A DNA stretch of 46,361 nt from an uncultured Pirellulaceae bacterium. Lineage in GTDB: Bacteria; Planctomycetota; Planctomycetia; Pirellulales; Pirellulaceae. The stretch covers positions 1 to 46,361 of the forward strand of contig CAMYKF010000731.1 in the NCBI GenBank assembly GCA_947258905.1. Direction: 5' to 3'. The notes beneath the pieces were generated by a model. That model did no database searches. It had not been told where the DNA came from and worked only from the letters and a program-made list of their open reading frames with translations. This document shows, piece by piece, positions 6,369-42,882 of this stretch. A program made the translations under genes and the position numbers. Every line of letters begins with the position of its first letter. Position 1 is the first letter of the stretch.

Positions 6369-7229
6369 TCAGCTTCCCGCCCCGGCGAGCACCTCGAATT
6401 CCTCTCGTGAGGACTCGACAACTTCTTCCCGGCGATCCGGTTCCAAACCGGCAATGATCCGGTTATGCGAATATTGTTCTGCATCCAGGGGCTGGGCCTC
6501 GCTGCCGATCCCGTCGCTAATCGCCACATGATTGGCGGCTTCCACGACCTCGGACAACGGCGTGGGCAAAGGCTGTGCCTGGTTGCCGTGATGATGACCG
6601 ATGACTCCGGTGATCTCGGCCGGGAATCCCCATCGTCGCGCGCAAATCTCGCCGACTTCCTGATGCGAGATGCCCAGAACTTCCTCTTCAACCCTTAGAA
6701 TCTCGTGCGGATCGGCCGCTTCGACCAGCTTGCTGTAATCGGATGACAACAACTGGGTGAGGACCAGTTTGCCAATGTCGTGCAACACGCCACCGAGGAA
6801 TGCCTGATCGGGATCACAAACTTCTTTCTGCCGTGTCAGATTTCGTGCAACCGAGGCACAGCCCAGGGAATGTCGAAACAGTTGCTCCCGAAAGCCCTGT
6901 CCGTGATCACCTTCGCGAAACATCTTCATCGCCGCAAACGACGCAGCCAGCCGCGAGATGTTGCGACTGCCCAAAATAACGACCGCGTGCGCGATGGTGT
7001 CAATTTGCCGGGCATATCCGTACAGCGGGCTGTTGGCCACGGCAAGCACACGGGCTGCCATGGCCGGTTCCGTTTCAATGATAGAAACAACTTCATCCGT
7101 CTGGCCTTGCGGATCCTGGCAGGCGTTGAGCAATGCCAGCGCGCCAGCTGGCAACGGCTGGACAGAATCCAGATCCTGCAGTTGCGTCAGCAGCATTTCG
7201 CGATTGGCCGAGAAAGCAGAGTTCGTCAT
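6369..7229 (-). CDS. HDOD domain protein
   Basis: AARVLAVANSPLYGYARQIDTIAHAVVILGSRNISRLAASFA and LHDIGKLVL motifs. Confidence 0.9.
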   Translation of the reverse strand: MTNSAFSANREMLLTQLQDLDSVQPLPAGALALLNACQDPQGQTDEVVSIIETEPAMAARVLAVANSPLYGYARQIDTIAHAVVILGSRNISRLAASFAAMKMFREGDHGQGFREQLFRHSLGCASVARNLTRQKEVCDPDQAFLGGVLHDIGKLVLTQLLSSDYSKLVEAADPHEILRVEEEVLGISHQEVGEICARRWGFPAEITGVIGHHHGNQAQPLPTPLSEVVEAANHVAISDGIGSEAQPLDAEQYSHNRIIAGLEPDRREEVVESSREEFEVLAGAGS

Positions 7230-18848: not shown

Positions 18849-19169
18849 CTAGCCGGCTTCGCGTTGCTTTTTCCGGAAATGCGGCGCGGGCACTGCGGGC
18901 GAATGGCCTTGCAGGCGAATCGTGTCGACGGTGCGTCGAGATCCGAGGATGGCAATGGCATGTTCAACGCGGGAAATCTGGTTGCGCAAGGCAAATTCGG
19001 GCGAATTGGCCCGGTGCAACAATGCATCGGACAGTCCGGGAATCTCGCGAATCAGCGCCAGCATCTGCTCCATCTCGGTATGGGGCGATTGCGCCAATTC
19101 CTCGAGACTGCGCAGACGATGGCTGATGACTTCAGCAGTTTCCTGGCTTGGGGTTGCCTGACTCTCCAT
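18849..19169 (-). CDS. short HDOD-like fragment or protein
   Basis: MLALIREIPGLSDALLHRANSPEFALRNQISRVEHAIAILGSRRTVDTI matches only the HDOD N-terminal part; 106 aa. Confidence 0.55.
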   Translation of the reverse strand: MESQATPSQETAEVISHRLRSLEELAQSPHTEMEQMLALIREIPGLSDALLHRANSPEFALRNQISRVEHAIAILGSRRTVDTIRLQGHSPAVPAPHFRKKQREAG

Positions 19170-19186
19170 AATCCCTACCCAAATAT

Positions 19187-20638
19187 CTAACCCAGAAAAT
19201 CCAGCAAGTTGTTACTTTGCAGAATCGACAGCGCTGCGTAGTTGAATTGCATCGTCGTTTGCAGAGTCTGCATTTCCACAATGACGGCCGCCAGATCCGC
19301 CGACTCCTGTTTGTTTAGTCGCGATTTCAAATCGAGTTGATGGTCCTCGTTTCGAGCAGCCAGCTGTTCAAGATCCTGCAACGCGACGGACTGTTCGCCG
19401 ACGTGATCCAGCAAGTGGCTGCTGAGGCGTTCCAGATCCACCGCTCGGCGTTCAAATGCACGGTTCAGTTCCGCATCGTCGAAATGTCGGTTATTCAGCA
19501 AATCATCTTTTAGCTCCAGCAAGACCGTGATTGCATCCGCCGTTCCCGTGAACTCGATAGATTCCGTGCCGGTAAACCGGATGCCGGATGAATCGATATT
19601 GGCGACGCGCCCCGACAATTCGCTGCTTACCACCTGGTTCGAGGAAAAGTCAATATCGGTTGTAGTCTGGCCGCCGTCAGTCGATAGAGTACCGCTGGCT
19701 GACAAAGGGACATCGCCGGAGAATCCCGCAAGCACGGCGGTTGTGTCAATAAACACCACCTCGCCCAGAGGACCTGTCACACGCAGGTTGGTGTCCGTTG
19801 ATTCCCAGTCGACCGCCGCGCCGCCGTTAAGCGAAACACGGCCTGACGTGCCGTTACCGCTGATGTCCTCGATCGTCAGCCGATGATCTCCCATGGATCC
19901 GATGACGGTATCACCCGCTAAGCTATCTGTGCCTGGCGTGATGCCTGATCCGGCGCGGTAGATAGTGGCACTGTGTTGAACGAGCAGGTTCGTACGGCCA
20001 ATTTCGCTGTCGGTACCTGTGCCCGCCTGGGCGCCGGTAGCACCCAGAAACAGGGACTCGCCGCGTGCAGCAGCCTGAAACACCTCAACCCCGGTAAAGG
20101 TAGAGCGGATGGAAATGGACTCACTGATTACCGTTTCGGCGTTCTGTTGAGCACCGGCGTAAACGACCAGCGGAATCGCCAGGCCTGAATCCTCGAGCAG
20201 CTCGAACGGCCGGGTCTCAAACGCGGTCCCTGAATAAAGATAACGACCCTGATCGCGGGAATTGGCGGTGGCCACCAGTTGGTCGATGATGCCGTCGACT
20301 TCGGCAGCCAGAGCGGCACGGTCGGATTGCCCGAACGACTGCGGGGCGTCCAGTGCAATCTGTTTCGCGCGGTTGATCAGGTTGTTGACCTCCAACAGGC
20401 GACTGACGCTGGTGTTCAGGGGCTGCTGCAACTCGGCAATGCGCAGATTTTGCGTTTCCAGCTGGCCCAGCGCACGATTCAGCGTCCGGATCGATCTGGT
20501 CACGACCGGGTTTTCCGACGGCGTCGAGTATTGCAGGCCGGACGAAGCCTGCTGCTGCAGCGTCGCCATGCGAGTCAGGTGGTTGCGGTTTTGATAGATG
20601 GCCGTGCGGGACATCGACAGGGGCGTTATTCGAAACAT
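19187..20638 (-). CDS. flgL: flagellar hook-filament junction protein FlgL
   Basis: RITPLSMSRTAIYQNRNHLTRMATLQQQASSGLQYSTPSENPV; flagellin-like termini; adjacent to flgK. Confidence 0.9.
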   Translation of the reverse strand: MFRITPLSMSRTAIYQNRNHLTRMATLQQQASSGLQYSTPSENPVVTRSIRTLNRALGQLETQNLRIAELQQPLNTSVSRLLEVNNLINRAKQIALDAPQSFGQSDRAALAAEVDGIIDQLVATANSRDQGRYLYSGTAFETRPFELLEDSGLAIPLVVYAGAQQNAETVISESISIRSTFTGVEVFQAAARGESLFLGATGAQAGTGTDSEIGRTNLLVQHSATIYRAGSGITPGTDSLAGDTVIGSMGDHRLTIEDISGNGTSGRVSLNGGAAVDWESTDTNLRVTGPLGEVVFIDTTAVLAGFSGDVPLSASGTLSTDGGQTTTDIDFSSNQVVSSELSGRVANIDSSGIRFTGTESIEFTGTADAITVLLELKDDLLNNRHFDDAELNRAFERRAVDLERLSSHLLDHVGEQSVALQDLEQLAARNEDHQLDLKSRLNKQESADLAAVIVEMQTLQTTMQFNYAALSILQSNNLLDFLG

Positions 20639-27279: not shown

Positions 27280-28011
27280 TCAGGAGTCAAACGTTGTGAA
27301 CTGCTGAATCACTTCGGAAATGGAACGCAATCCCTGCTGCGCGGCCTCGAAATGTCGCATGCCGATGATCATGGCGATCATCTCGGTGACCAGCGATGTA
27401 TTGGAAGATTCAAGGCTGCCCTGGATCACGGCGCCTGCCGCGGGCCGCGAAGTCACGTCTTCCGGTGCCCGGAATCGAGTGTCGCCCACCGCTTGCAGGA
27501 CTCCCAGGTTATCGAAGGTTACAAGATCGAGTTGCCCGATCTCTTCTCCTTTGGCGCGAACCGTGCCGTCCGCGTTAATCACGATATCTGACAGCTGTGC
27601 GTCTGCCGGCACCGTTAGTGCTTGCCCGTTTCCCAGAACATTGGATCCGTCAGCCGTGACCAGCCGGCCGTCGGTCGACAGGTGGAAATTGCCATTTCGG
27701 GTGTACATGTTGCCGTTGGGAGTTTCGATGACGAACATGCCCTCGCCATTGATAGCCAGATCAAGCTTGCGCCCGGTGTCGATCAGGTTTCCCTCAGTAA
27801 AGTCGATATAGGTGCGTGCTGAAGTGCTTCCGCGAAGATCGGTGTTCACGTCACCCGATTGCAGCTCTTCGTTGCTGCCACGAGTACTGACAGCAAGGAT
27901 AGTGCGTCGAAATCCGGCAGCGTTGGCGTTGGCCAAATTGTTGGCAATCACATCGTGCTGTCGCGAGGCCACATCCATGGCAGAGGCGTGACTATAAATT
28001 CCAGAGAACAT
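27280..28011 (-). CDS. flgF: flagellar hook-basal body protein FlgF
   Basis: VASRQHDVIANNLANANAAGFRRTIL; LVTEMIAMIIGMRHFEAAQQGLRSI. Confidence 0.85.
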   Translation of the reverse strand: MFSGIYSHASAMDVASRQHDVIANNLANANAAGFRRTILAVSTRGSNEELQSGDVNTDLRGSTSARTYIDFTEGNLIDTGRKLDLAINGEGMFVIETPNGNMYTRNGNFHLSTDGRLVTADGSNVLGNGQALTVPADAQLSDIVINADGTVRAKGEEIGQLDLVTFDNLGVLQAVGDTRFRAPEDVTSRPAAGAVIQGSLESSNTSLVTEMIAMIIGMRHFEAAQQGLRSISEVIQQFTTFDS

Positions 28012-28129
28012 GAGGCGGGTCGCTTTTCCATCAACGGGTCACGGTGGTTGTTGTGCGCGCAAATTGACGCAATGTCGTCATTCGCAATTGGCGGGCCAAC
28101 GCAGGGAAAAACCCAAAAAGCCTGTTTCG

Positions 28130-28256
28130 TTCGCCAAATCCGAACTTTCGCCAAATCCTGGCAGCATGCTGGTGCAAAACGCTGGCGAAAGTTTTTCGCT
28201 GATAGCAGAAATCCGGGACCGTCGACCCGCGACAAAATCCGGATTTGTCGAAAGTT
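28130..28256. promoter_or_regulatory. cluster of four related motif copies plus dyads in the divergent fliL/flgF intergenic region
   Basis: TTCGCCAAATCC at 28130 and 28147 (direct), AACTTTCGCCA (28183-28193, inverted), GAACTTTCGACAAATCC (28239-28255 region, inverted). Confidence 0.55.
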
Positions 28257-28398
28257 CAATTCCCGACACGTCGATATTGTTTGTGTAACCGTCAAAGTCA
28301 GGCGGTTTTGAAAGCAGGGCAGTTGCTTTCACAAGGGCAGAATAAAGGCCGTTTCCGAGCATTCGCTGACGAAGCGGCCGCATTAAGAGTCAGGGCAG

Positions 28399-28905
28399 AT
28401 GACTGATAATGCTGAAATTCAATTAACAGAGGACAAGCCTCGCGGCTTCATGTCGCTGGTTCTCTGGCTAATGGTTGTTTGCGTTGCGATTGGCGGCGGC
28501 TTTGCGACGCCGTTCCTCATCGATCACTTTCAGGCGAACGCTGAAGAAAGTGAATCCAGCGTAACTCCTCGCGACCAGGACGAACCTCCTGCGTTGGTCG
28601 AATTTGGCGAAGTTGTCGTCAATCTCAACGAGTCGCGACTGAATCGTTATCTACGCCTCAATATATCCTTGCTGGTCGACCAGTCCGCCAAGGACTCCGT
28701 TGAAACATCGGTGAAGGAAAATCAGCCGATTCTCAAGAGCTGGTTGCTCAGTTATCTGGCCGACAAGGGCATGGATGACATTCGCGGCGCCACGGGACAG
28801 AACCGGCTGCGACGAGAGATTCAAAGTCATTTCAATTCCGTCATGTACCCGGGCACGGAACCAAAGATCCGCAATGTGCTGTTTCAGGAATTCAACATTC
28901 AGTAA
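28399..28905 (+). CDS. fliL: flagellar basal body-associated protein FliL
   Basis: Single TM, VEFGEVVVNLNESRLNRYLRLNISLLVD; directly upstream of fliM. Confidence 0.88.
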   Translation: MTDNAEIQLTEDKPRGFMSLVLWLMVVCVAIGGGFATPFLIDHFQANAEESESSVTPRDQDEPPALVEFGEVVVNLNESRLNRYLRLNISLLVDQSAKDSVETSVKENQPILKSWLLSYLADKGMDDIRGATGQNRLRREIQSHFNSVMYPGTEPKIRNVLFQEFNIQ

Positions 28906-34109: not shown

Positions 34110-34814
34110 ATGGACTCCGCTACCAACGTCTACCGCGATGCCGCGAAAAAACAAAAACGCGACAAGCTGGTGCTGGACCATTTGGAATATGTCCGCCAGA
34201 TCTGCGGCACTCTGGCCAAACGACTGCCGGACATTGTCGATCTGCCGAACCTGCAGTCGGCAGGCACTGTGGGTCTGATCGAGGCGGCACAAAGTTTTGA
34301 TGAATCGCGGGGTGTGGCCTTCAAAACGTTTTCCTACCCGCGAATCCGCGGCGCCATTATTGATGAAATCCGACGCAACTCGCCTCTTTCCCAGCGGATC
34401 ATGACGGCTGTCAGCAAGGTGCGCACAGCCATCGAGAACATGGAGCCACCGGCAACGCCCGAGTCGATTTCCGAAGCCACCGGTTTGGGCGTTGAGGAGG
34501 TTGAGGAGTGCCTGGCTGCCATGCGGATCGCCAACCCGCAAAGCTGGGAAGAGTCAGGCAAAATGCCCGGAAAAACCATCCACCCCGAAACGAGGCTGGA
34601 GCATGAAGAGCAAAAACAGTTGCTGGCAGACGCGATTGAACAACTGCCGAAACGCGATCGAAGTGTGGTGCAGATGTACTACCAGGAAGAACTCAGGCTA
34701 AAGGAAATCGGCGTGATTCTGGGTATATCGGAATCGCGCGTCTCGCGGGTGCTGGCGCGGGCAGAGTTGCAGTTGCGCGAATGTATTCGCCGGAGAGAGA
34801 ACCCGACAGCGTAA
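34110..34814 (+). CDS. fliA: flagellar sigma factor FliA (sigma-28)
   Basis: LPDIVDLPNLQSAGTVGLIEAAQSFDESRGVAFKTFSYPRIRGAIIDEIRR; sigma-4 RDRSVVQMYYQEELRLKEIGVILGISESRVSRVLARA. Confidence 0.96.
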   Translation: MDSATNVYRDAAKKQKRDKLVLDHLEYVRQICGTLAKRLPDIVDLPNLQSAGTVGLIEAAQSFDESRGVAFKTFSYPRIRGAIIDEIRRNSPLSQRIMTAVSKVRTAIENMEPPATPESISEATGLGVEEVEECLAAMRIANPQSWEESGKMPGKTIHPETRLEHEEQKQLLADAIEQLPKRDRSVVQMYYQEELRLKEIGVILGISESRVSRVLARAELQLRECIRRRENPTA

Positions 34815-36813: not shown

Positions 36814-38451
36814 TCACCCCAGTTCGACGTCGCCAGCCAGTGAGAACTGCCGTGGCTCGATCGCTGAAGCAGCACGGCGTTGTGCTCCCCGGCCGTTGGG
36901 CTGCACCGGGGCGCCGGTTTCGGGGTCGGTGATTTCGTCCAGCTTGACCACTTTGCATCGACTTCCGCCGTGCCCTCGAGCTTCGGACATGGCCAGATCG
37001 GCAACGTCAAATACGCGATTGGCCAGCGGCGAGTGATCCAGACCGGTTTGGCACAGCACTGCTCCCACACTGATGGTTACCGGAGTCGTGCGACGCGTGG
37101 CTCCCGGTGTGCGGTTTTCGATTTCGGTGCACAATTGCTGCATCAGTTGCTGCAGGGATTCTTCATCTTCAACTTCAACCAGCGCGATAAATTCATCGCC
37201 TCCATAGCGGGCAACCAGGCCATCTGGAATGAAGGAATCGATAAATTTTGCCGTCCATGAAATGGCGAAGTCCCCTGCCAAATGACCGTGTCCCTCATTG
37301 ATGGAATTGAAATCGTCGATATCAATCACGAGAATGGCAAAGCACTTTTTGTGGCATGATTCCGAACGGATTCTTTCCAGCAACCGGCCGGCAAAATAGT
37401 CGCGGTTATAGACACCGGTTAGGGGATCACGGCATGTCCGGTCCTCCAGGCTGGCGACCAGCTTTCGTAGCAATTCGTTTTCCCGTTCCAGCTGATTCAG
37501 GCTCTGGTCACTGGCTGGTGACTGTGTCCCGGCATCCTCGGACACAAGTTGTTCGTTAGCCTGTCCCAGCAAATGACTGATGGAGGGAAGGTCCTGCACA
37601 TTCACGGAGAACAAGGTAGCCTTTTTCTCGATATCATCCCGCACACAATCCATCAGCCACTTGATGTCCTGTTCGACCAATTGCAGGTGCCGGCGACATA
37701 CCGTATCAATCGTGGCCAGTGCATCTCCCTGGTTGTGACAACAAAAGAATTCACCGACAGCGGCACTTGCCACACTGGCAGCAATCAACGAAAAGCGGGG
37801 ACTGTCGAGATGCTTCTCCAGTTCCGCCGGGGACAGGGCGTGGCACAACGCCGCTTCGGCATACCGCTCCGGCAGACTCATGCTGCGCAATAACGCCGCG
37901 CCGATTTCAGCATGATTGGTTTTCAGACGTTGCCGCTCAAGTTCATGCAGGGGGATGTTCTGTTGCAAAGCCTCGTCGACCAACTGGCAATATTCGGCCT
38001 CGTGCCGGTCCAGTAAAGCCAGTCTGCCGAAATCAAGCAGCAATCCGCACACCGAGGCCTCGCTTCGCTGGATTCGGCCGCAGGCTTCGGCCAACCGCGA
38101 CATGGCACATCCCTGAATAAACGATTGGCACCAGAAATCGCGGAAATAGTGTTCGTCGACGCCAAGTTGTGACGAGAATGACTCAAGCTTGAAACTCAGG
38201 ACCAGGCCAGCAACTTCCGATTTGCCAATCCATGAGATTGCGTGTTCCAGCGTGCTGATTTCCGATTTGGCGCGATAGGCAGGTGAGTTGGAAGCCTGCA
38301 AAATCCTCGCGGTCAGGACGGGATCCACCTTGATCTCGGCAGCCAGTTGCACCACCGCGATTTCCTCATCGGCAAACATCTCCAGAACCCTTACAGCAAC
38401 CGGAGGGAACGCTGGCAAACGGTAATTGTCAGATAAATTGGGACTTGGCAT
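36814..38451 (-). CDS. HDOD-GGDEF protein (putative diguanylate cyclase)
   Basis: N-terminal HDOD (LTARILQASNSPAYRAKSEISTLEHAISWIG) and C-terminal DPLTGVYNRDYF...ARYGGDEFIALVE. Confidence 0.94.
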   Translation of the reverse strand: MPSPNLSDNYRLPAFPPVAVRVLEMFADEEIAVVQLAAEIKVDPVLTARILQASNSPAYRAKSEISTLEHAISWIGKSEVAGLVLSFKLESFSSQLGVDEHYFRDFWCQSFIQGCAMSRLAEACGRIQRSEASVCGLLLDFGRLALLDRHEAEYCQLVDEALQQNIPLHELERQRLKTNHAEIGAALLRSMSLPERYAEAALCHALSPAELEKHLDSPRFSLIAASVASAAVGEFFCCHNQGDALATIDTVCRRHLQLVEQDIKWLMDCVRDDIEKKATLFSVNVQDLPSISHLLGQANEQLVSEDAGTQSPASDQSLNQLERENELLRKLVASLEDRTCRDPLTGVYNRDYFAGRLLERIRSESCHKKCFAILVIDIDDFNSINEGHGHLAGDFAISWTAKFIDSFIPDGLVARYGGDEFIALVEVEDEESLQQLMQQLCTEIENRTPGATRRTTPVTISVGAVLCQTGLDHSPLANRVFDVADLAMSEARGHGGSRCKVVKLDEITDPETGAPVQPNGRGAQRRAASAIEPRQFSLAGDVELG

Positions 38452-40875: not shown

Positions 40876-42363
40876 TTAACCAAGCAACGACAGAACCAGC
40901 TGCGAGGTCTGCGACGCACTGGACAATACCGACGTGCCGGCCTGTACCAGTACCTGTTGCTTGGTGAAGTTGGTAATTTCTTCTGCGAAGTCGGTGTCAC
41001 GAATGATCGACTCGGCGTTGACGGTGTTTTCCAGCGTCGCCCGCAGGTTATTGGCGGTGGATTCCAGGGTGTTGCCCTGGAACGCACCCAACGTACCCCG
41101 CAGGTTGGTGATATCGTCGATTGCGGAATCGATGACACCCAAAGAGTCTTGCGAGCCACTGGCAGTCGTAACGTCGATCGACTTCCAATTCGAAAACTGG
41201 TTGCTGGGAAGGTTGTTTCCGAGCGCGTCACTGCTGGCTTTCAGGATCGATAGCTGGGCCGTTTGTCCCGCATTGGCTCCGATCTGGAACGTCAGCGTGC
41301 CGTCTGCCACACCAATGTTGGCGCCGGCTACATCAGCGGTTTCAGCGGCATCCGTGGCGTTGGCCTCGACCGTGAAGGTCAGACCGTTGAAGTCACCGGA
41401 AGAAGCCGAGATCACATTGCCTGTGGCCACAACATTGTCCAGAGTCGAACCGCCAGGTCCGGTCAAATCGACAATCAGGTTCTGGCCAATCTTGGTAACG
41501 ATTCCCGTACCGCTATTTGTATCGACTGTCGCATCACCGATACCGGTTTGGTCGTTGAAGGAGGTGTCGAGGCTTGACGCCACGGTAAAATTCTGACCGA
41601 AGTTCTTTGAAGTCAGCACCAATTCACCGGAGCCGCTCTTCAATGAAGCAATCACACCAGTATCGCTGGTGACGGAATTGATGGCATCGCGAACCTGGGT
41701 GTTGGTCATACCGGCCGTCAGGTTCACCTGCGTCGAACTGTTAAACGTCAGCGTTTCGTCCAATGCGAGGTTGCTGTCGTTGTCCAGTACACTGGTCGCT
41801 GCACTGCCGCTGGTATCGATCTGGCCCTTCTGGGCGTTCTGATCAATATTGTCAATCGCAAACGTTCCGACGGTCGTGTCGGACGTTGCGTTCAAATCGG
41901 TAACAAACGTATTCGTGGAAGTGGCATTCAATCCAGCGCTGCCATCGAGCAGCTTCTTGGTTCCAAACTGGGTATTGGCCGCAATACGGTCAATCGTTGC
42001 CAGGGCGTTTGTGATTTCTGCCTGATTGGCGGCGAGGGCATCTTCATCGTTGACACCGGCGTTGGCGGAATCCAGAGCCAGTCCACGAATTTTGACCAGC
42101 AGACTGTTGATCTCTGTCAACGCGCCTTCCGCGGTTTGCACCATGGAAGTGGCTTTTTCCGAATTTTCGATTGCCTGTCGCAAACCGGCAATTTGTGCTC
42201 GCTGCTTTTCAGAAATGACCAGCCCTGCAGGACCGTCGGCACCACGGTTGATTTTCAAACCGGATGACAACCGTTCCAGCGAACGGTTAAGGTTCATCGA
42301 ACTGCGGTTGAGATTGTGCTGTGCGCTCAACGCGCCAACGTTGTTGGCAAGTGTAAGAGCCAT
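40876..42363 (-). CDS. fliC: flagellin
   Basis: LTLANNVGALSAQHNLNRSSMNLNRSLERLSSGLKINRGADGPAGLVISEKQRAQIAGL; C-terminal ANNLRATLENTVNAESIIRDTDFAEEITNFTKQQVLVQAGTSVLSSA. Confidence 0.98.
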   Translation of the reverse strand: MALTLANNVGALSAQHNLNRSSMNLNRSLERLSSGLKINRGADGPAGLVISEKQRAQIAGLRQAIENSEKATSMVQTAEGALTEINSLLVKIRGLALDSANAGVNDEDALAANQAEITNALATIDRIAANTQFGTKKLLDGSAGLNATSTNTFVTDLNATSDTTVGTFAIDNIDQNAQKGQIDTSGSAATSVLDNDSNLALDETLTFNSSTQVNLTAGMTNTQVRDAINSVTSDTGVIASLKSGSGELVLTSKNFGQNFTVASSLDTSFNDQTGIGDATVDTNSGTGIVTKIGQNLIVDLTGPGGSTLDNVVATGNVISASSGDFNGLTFTVEANATDAAETADVAGANIGVADGTLTFQIGANAGQTAQLSILKASSDALGNNLPSNQFSNWKSIDVTTASGSQDSLGVIDSAIDDITNLRGTLGAFQGNTLESTANNLRATLENTVNAESIIRDTDFAEEITNFTKQQVLVQAGTSVLSSASQTSQLVLSLLG

Positions 42364-42478: not shown

Positions 42479-42847
42479 CTACCGCAAAAATGCCTCCGCA
42501 GTCAATTCGGCTGACTGCCGGTTGAAGAAGGTGCCCGATTGAATTTTTTGCTGAACCTCAGCAATTCGATCGAGACGTATCTCCGGTGATTCCGCGAGTT
42601 TTTGAACCAGACCCACCAGTTCCGGGTCGCGGGCGTGTTGGGCGTGGACTGAATTTGCATCAGCCACCCCGCTGCCGGGGGTTCGGGAATCGAACCGGGC
42701 ATGCGGCGAATTGACTTTGGCTGTACCGCCCGGAATGCGTTCCGGGGAGCCGCCTGGCAAATCGTTGATGTTCACGTCAACAATCTCGCTAGAGGAAAGG
42801 TTGGACGAATAGGTGATCGAGCCGCTTCGGGGGAACTTGTCAGGCAA
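42479..42847 (-). CDS. flgM: FlgM-like anti-sigma-28 factor
   Basis: C-terminal LVGLVQKLAESPEIRLDRIAEVQQKIQSGTFFNRQSAELTAEAFL; next to fliC. Confidence 0.8.
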   Translation of the reverse strand: MPDKFPRSGSITYSSNLSSSEIVDVNINDLPGGSPERIPGGTAKVNSPHARFDSRTPGSGVADANSVHAQHARDPELVGLVQKLAESPEIRLDRIAEVQQKIQSGTFFNRQSAELTAEAFLR

Positions 42848-42854
42848 CTTGCAA

Positions 42855-42882
42855 TAAAGTTCCGGGTCGCAAAAGCCGATCA
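42855..42882 (+). promoter_or_regulatory. candidate sigma-28 promoter for the TPR operon
   Basis: TAAAGTTC-N12-GCCGATCA; 7/8 matches to each half of TAAAGTTT / GCCGATAA (usual spacer N11). Confidence 0.6.

Follow-up and report, generated by a model that had tools for sequence, protein, structure and literature searches.

A probable RpoN/FliA-type flagellar control region between flgF and fliL in a planctomycete, with a conserved palindrome as candidate upstream activating site

What controls the two flagellar operons that diverge from the spacer between flgF and fliL in an uncultured Pirellulaceae bacterium? We analysed a window of 46,361 nucleotides, which makes up contig C731; the genome assembly to which it belongs is fragmented (G000; 5.5 Mb in 763 contigs, 84% complete). 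Direct reading bears out a 387-bp spacer at 28012-28398 that separates flgF on the minus strand from fliL on the plus strand, and Pfam bears out the identities of both genes. The minus-strand operon runs flgF-flgG-flgA-flgH-flgI, and the plus-strand operon runs fliL-fliM-fliN-...-fliP-flhA-...-fliA. The first-pass annotation had described a four-copy AAATCC motif in this spacer as a candidate site of a master flagellar regulator. The spacer is indeed a flagellar control region with operator-like elements, but its signal is carried by elements other than the AAATCC motif: what is conserved is another palindrome, together with predicted promoters of the sigma-54 and the sigma-28-like type.

Five divergent flgF/fliL spacers were compared: that of the window genome, those of the other two genomes of its genus (G001 and G002), and those of two further genera (G029 and G014). 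The congeners have flgF at the same place, 59% identical; the G002 contig ends within the spacer. The nearest named relatives found by alignment query are Planctomycetaceae metagenome bins (~40% identity in FlgF), and a single-protein FlgF query against genome contigs returned no match. Three HDOD-domain ORFs lie inside the flagellar cluster (36814-38451, 6369-7229 and 18849-19169), one of them fused to GGDEF. There are two flagellin-type genes, at 40876-42363 and 19187-20638 (flagellin and probable flgL); a clear sigma-28 -35/-10 pair was looked for upstream of the flagellin gene and none was found.

Table 1. Positions of spacer elements and of flagellar genes in the window.
Feature	Position	Strand	Remarks
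flgF (rod protein)	27280..28011	-	Pfam; first gene of its operon; ortholog identically arranged in G001
Predicted sigma-54 promoter for flgF, TGGCCCGCCAATTGCG	28083..28098	-	Predicted start near 28072
Copy 1, CGTTCGCCAAATCC	28128..28141	+	Lineage-specific; absent in relatives
Copy 2, GAACTTTCGCCAAATCC	28142..28158	+	Absent in relatives
CAGCATGCTG, perfect 10-bp palindrome	28162..28171		As such not conserved (alignment)
Palindrome GCTGGCGAAA-GTT-TTTCGCTGA	28181..28202		Candidate upstream activating site; includes copy 3 (28183-28193)
CGACAAA-N7-TTTGTCG dyad	28230..28250		Not conserved
Copy 4, GAACTTTCGACAAATCCGG inverted	28239..28257	-	Plus-strand CGAAAGTTC overlaps fliL -35
Sigma-28-like promoter for fliL, GAAAGTTC-N12-GTCGATAT	28250..28277	+	Same position and spacing in G001 and G002; expected start ~28284
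Block from -10 to GTAACCGTCAAAGT	28270..28298	+	29 bp; constant length in five spacers, 18-19/29 identical
fliL	28399..28905	+	Pfam; first gene of its operon
FliA-type sigma-28 factor	34110..34814	+	170.9 bits, under curated cut-off of 189.6
FlgM, anti-sigma-28 factor	42479..42847	-	Pfam

The flgF side carries a predicted sigma-54 promoter. Such promoters are marked by a GG and a GC, spaced ten bases, in the context TGGCAC-N5-TTGCA. The window site, TGGCCCGCCAATTGCG, has a weighted score of 13.5 out of 15 and is the joint best of the whole window. All five divergent spacers have a predicted -24/-12 promoter ahead of flgF, between -69 and -101; the orthologous sites read TGGTCCGAGAGTTGCA in G001 and G002, TGGCACAGAGGTTGCA in G029 and TGGCATAGTAGTTGCT in G014, and the GG/GC spacing is present in the four orthologs as it is in the window. 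The score of each spacer was equalled by at most 7 of 300 shuffles. A site at -85 precedes flgF in G010, a genome where the divergent fliL was not found, and a search before flgF of G031 found none. On the fliL side, no sigma-54 site was consistent across the genomes compared.

Before fliL, the congener equivalent of the sigma-28-like site is AAAAGTTG-N12-ACCGATAA. The window site scores 12 of 16 against the consensus TAAAGTTT-N11-GCCGATAA, with N12 as spacer, a value equalled by ~9% of shuffled spacers; since the score alone is weak, the assignment leans on the conserved position. The -10 runs into a block with a GYAAYCGT end and a few more bases common to the five spacers. Searched with one mismatch, the conserved CGATA block gives background matches in most family genomes. 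Ahead of fliL there is also a GAAAGCA-N7-TGCTTTC inverted repeat (28310-28330), with the counterpart GAAAGCA-N6-TGCTTTC in G001. Elsewhere in the window, a near-consensus sigma-28 promoter, TAAAGTTC-N12-GCCGATCA (42855-42882, plus strand), separates flgM from the divergently oriented gene of a TPR protein; it is stronger than the related fliL site. A GTAATCGTCAA motif near flgM (42923, minus strand) resembles one before fliL.

G000, G001 and G002 agree at all 19 specified bases of the palindrome GCTGGCGAAA-N3-TTTCGCTGA and differ at the three central ones. Each of these genomes has a single copy of it, always in this spacer, the runner-up sites of the three scans carrying 3 mismatches. The congeners match the 22-bp palindrome at 19 and 20 positions, compared with a best of 18 in 200 shuffled spacers; as G001 and G002 are closely related, this conservation amounts to two independent lineages. 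The palindrome is absent from G029 and G014, though their flgF sigma-54 promoter is retained, and its conservation holds within the genus only. Upstream activating sites of NtrC-family proteins are conserved dyads that precede the sigma-54 start by some 80-200 bp. The palindrome fits this range, at ~111-120 bp ahead of the flgF start as predicted; its centre is at -119.5 in the window and near -112 in the congeners. To our knowledge it is unlike the binding sites of FlrC, FleQ, FlbD and FlgR. Several of the motif comparisons were made after the data had been seen. A genome-wide search with the exact pattern AAAGTT-N11-15-CCGATAA gave few matches and no regulon. A second GCGAAA-N3-TTTCGC site in the window genome (contig C508) was set aside, as it appears by eye to lie within a coding region.

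Genes for the corresponding regulators are present. Each of the five genomes tested carries rpoN. An NtrC-family enhancer-binding protein is encoded directly upstream of fliK-flgD-flgE in G001, G002 and the window genome, where the gene is cut by the contig end. An ortholog is encoded at L102:4680-5789. The protein combines HTH_8 with a sigma-54 interaction domain, GAFTGA being seen in G001 and G002, and no receiver domain was detected in it; its AAA+ part matches the structures of FlrC, FleQ and ZraR by sequence. A relative, 52% identical, lies upstream of flgD-flgE in G029. Between the enhancer-binding protein gene and fliK there is a predicted sigma-54 promoter, scoring 15/15 in G001 and G002 and 13.5 in the window genome. 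Similar sigma-54 promoters were seen at an ORF in the fliK position in several family genomes (L309:13113, minus; L102 ~6089, plus; L308:2184, plus; L312:4444, minus; L313:5690, plus); they lie upstream of the ORF, two at its 5' end, and two are perfect at 15/15. A second FliA/WhiG-family sigma factor, at G000:C394:3783-4448, reaches 261 bits, over the curated cut-off; it outscores the FliA of the flagellar cluster and has orthologs in G002, G029 and G014.

From these comparisons we consider, with a probability of roughly 0.6, that the spacer is an RpoN/FliA flagellar control region in which the palindrome serves as the upstream activating site. Leftward, sigma-54 RNA polymerase would transcribe flgF from the promoter at 28098-28083, and GCTGGCGAAA-N3-TTTCGCTGA, centred ~120 bp upstream of the flgF start, would be the upstream activating site of its activator. 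The likeliest activator would be the NtrC-type protein encoded directly upstream of fliK-flgD-flgE. Rightward, the promoter at 28250-28277 would start the fliL operon, the sigma-28 gene included. The GAACTTTCGNCAAATCC copies are lineage-specific; two of them face outward and place CGAAAGTTC at a would-be -35.

RpoN/FliA hierarchies with an NtrC-family activator are known from Vibrio (FlrC), Pseudomonas (FleQ), Caulobacter (FlbD) and Campylobacter/Helicobacter (FlgR) (PMC3930126). The window genome has in common with them FliA, FlgM, predicted sigma-54 promoters ahead of genes for the rod and for hook length, and an enhancer-binding protein, here encoded among flagellar genes, whose AAA+ part matches FlrC and FleQ structures. 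In Campylobacter and Helicobacter, too, rod and hook-length genes form an RpoN class (PMC3930126), which the sigma-54 promoter at fliK fits. The window genome differs in its host, a member of the Planctomycetota, and in an activator without a detected receiver domain.

The repeats noticed at first are present in the spacer, as direct reading and a repeat search confirmed. TTCGCCAAATCC stands in direct orientation at 28130-28141 and 28147-28158, spaced 17 bp, AACTTTCGCCA is inverted within the palindrome, and the inverted GAACTTTCGACAAATCCGG matches copy 2 at 16 of 17 positions; both embedded dyads, CAGCATGCTG and CGACAAA-N7-TTTGTCG, were also correctly located. A count of four copies is generous: there are two full-length 17-mers (28142-28158 and the inverse of 28241-28257) and a near-copy (28128-28141, 13/14), and the third is only an 11-bp fragment of the different, conserved palindrome. 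Two more AAATCC words are found, at 28209 and at 28235. The inverted 17-mer at 16/17 was unmatched in 400 dinucleotide shuffles of the spacer (best 15), as were its five AAATCC/GGATTT words in 5000 (best 4), which indicates that the crowding is real. The best direct repeat at a fixed length of 17 is unexceptional by the same kind of shuffle. TTCGCYR words, counted after the sequence had been seen, number five, compared with at most four in 2000 shuffles. In a scan for sigma-70 promoters and terminators, the repeat cluster did not rise above shuffles. Read on the minus strand, copy 2 has its CGAAAGTTC facing flgF, and a recognisable -10 is missing.

The orthologous spacers of G001, G002, G029 and G014 lack the motif, and the best match to each copy in any relative is only 9-12 of 17. 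Lineage-specific copies, two of which form a 17-bp tandem, could be functionless and have arisen by chance, through duplication and inversion in place in the recent past. We regard this as possible but on the whole unlikely: a half-site is common to the copies and the conserved palindrome, and one copy overlaps the conserved -35.

The palindrome was found at neither fliK nor any other flagellar operon of the three genus genomes. This counts against the upstream-activating-site model, since recurrence would be expected if one activator served both flgF and fliK. What recurs at both fliL and fliK is another motif, GTAATCG[CT]TACAG; the true site of the activator may lie there, with the palindrome serving a separate regulator of this spacer only. 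G001 and G002 have a sequence of this type ahead of their fliK sigma-54 promoter, and the window genome has a less exact one; the constant-length block ending in GYAAYCGT stands before fliL in five spacers, and GTAATCGTCAA lies near flgM as well. This motif was, however, assembled post hoc, and it lies anywhere from ~206 to 420 bp from the flgF sigma-54 start, whereas it keeps a fixed distance from the fliL -10. The fixed and the variable distance together suggest that it is better understood as a core promoter element of fliL, and we find it doubtful that it is the activator's site.

Under the upstream-activating-site model, the GAACTTTCGNCAAATCC copies may be lineage-specific additional half-sites of the same regulator, as a TTTCGNCA-like half-site is common to the copies and the palindrome. 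A more ambitious version would have one flagellar regulator of undescribed specificity, recognising the TTTCGNCA-like half-site, bind palindrome and copies alike, the copies having recently accumulated about a conserved core operator through which the sigma-54 and sigma-28 promoters are coupled. This version is speculative, and we think it rather unlikely.

It is improbable that the GAACTTTCGCCAAATCC copies are themselves the operator of a master flagellar regulator binding all four, as the first-pass annotation had suggested. Their crowding and the inverted 16/17 pair do exceed shuffles, and copies flank both promoters, but orthologous spacers are without them and copy 3 belongs to another palindrome. 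Moreover, CTTTCGNCAAATCC with at most one mismatch has 21 matches in its own genome and 17-52 per genome in six relatives, so that a single site is at background level throughout; the own-genome matches checked beyond this spacer fall mostly within long ORFs, and flagellar genes show no enrichment. The motif as written is thus missing from orthologous spacers and at background singly, findings that the annotation itself had named as speaking against its proposal. Least probable is an action of the inverted copies through structure, as DNA cruciform or leader-RNA hairpin: the single-strand DNA fold of 28120-28262 is stabler than shuffles (z -3.3, 0/200 as good), but when the spacer is folded as RNA read towards flgF, its structure does not exceed that of shuffles (z -0.7), the repeats that form the fold are missing in the congeners, and the spacer matches no Rfam family at gathering threshold.

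Studholme and Dixon, as cited in PMC2754498, reportedly predicted a sigma-54 regulon of Planctomycetia in 2004. A regulon prediction for this class places some motility genes under sigma-54; the parts of that source drawn on here do not name flgF/fliL, fliK or a binding palindrome (PMC12316311). In Rhodobacter sphaeroides, CtrA is described as a shared regulator of divergent flagellar promoters (PMC6180460). The planctomycete locus is similar in that an upstream region is common to divergent flagellar operons, but both the regulator and the phylum are different.

The literature searched says little about how planctomycetes control their flagellar genes. The locus illustrates that a conspicuous repeat cluster is not necessarily the conserved control element. 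What it offers is a testable map: the rod genes are assigned a predicted sigma-54 promoter and the switch/export operon a sigma-28-like one, the gene next to fliK is a candidate for the activator, and a site of 22 bp is a candidate for binding.
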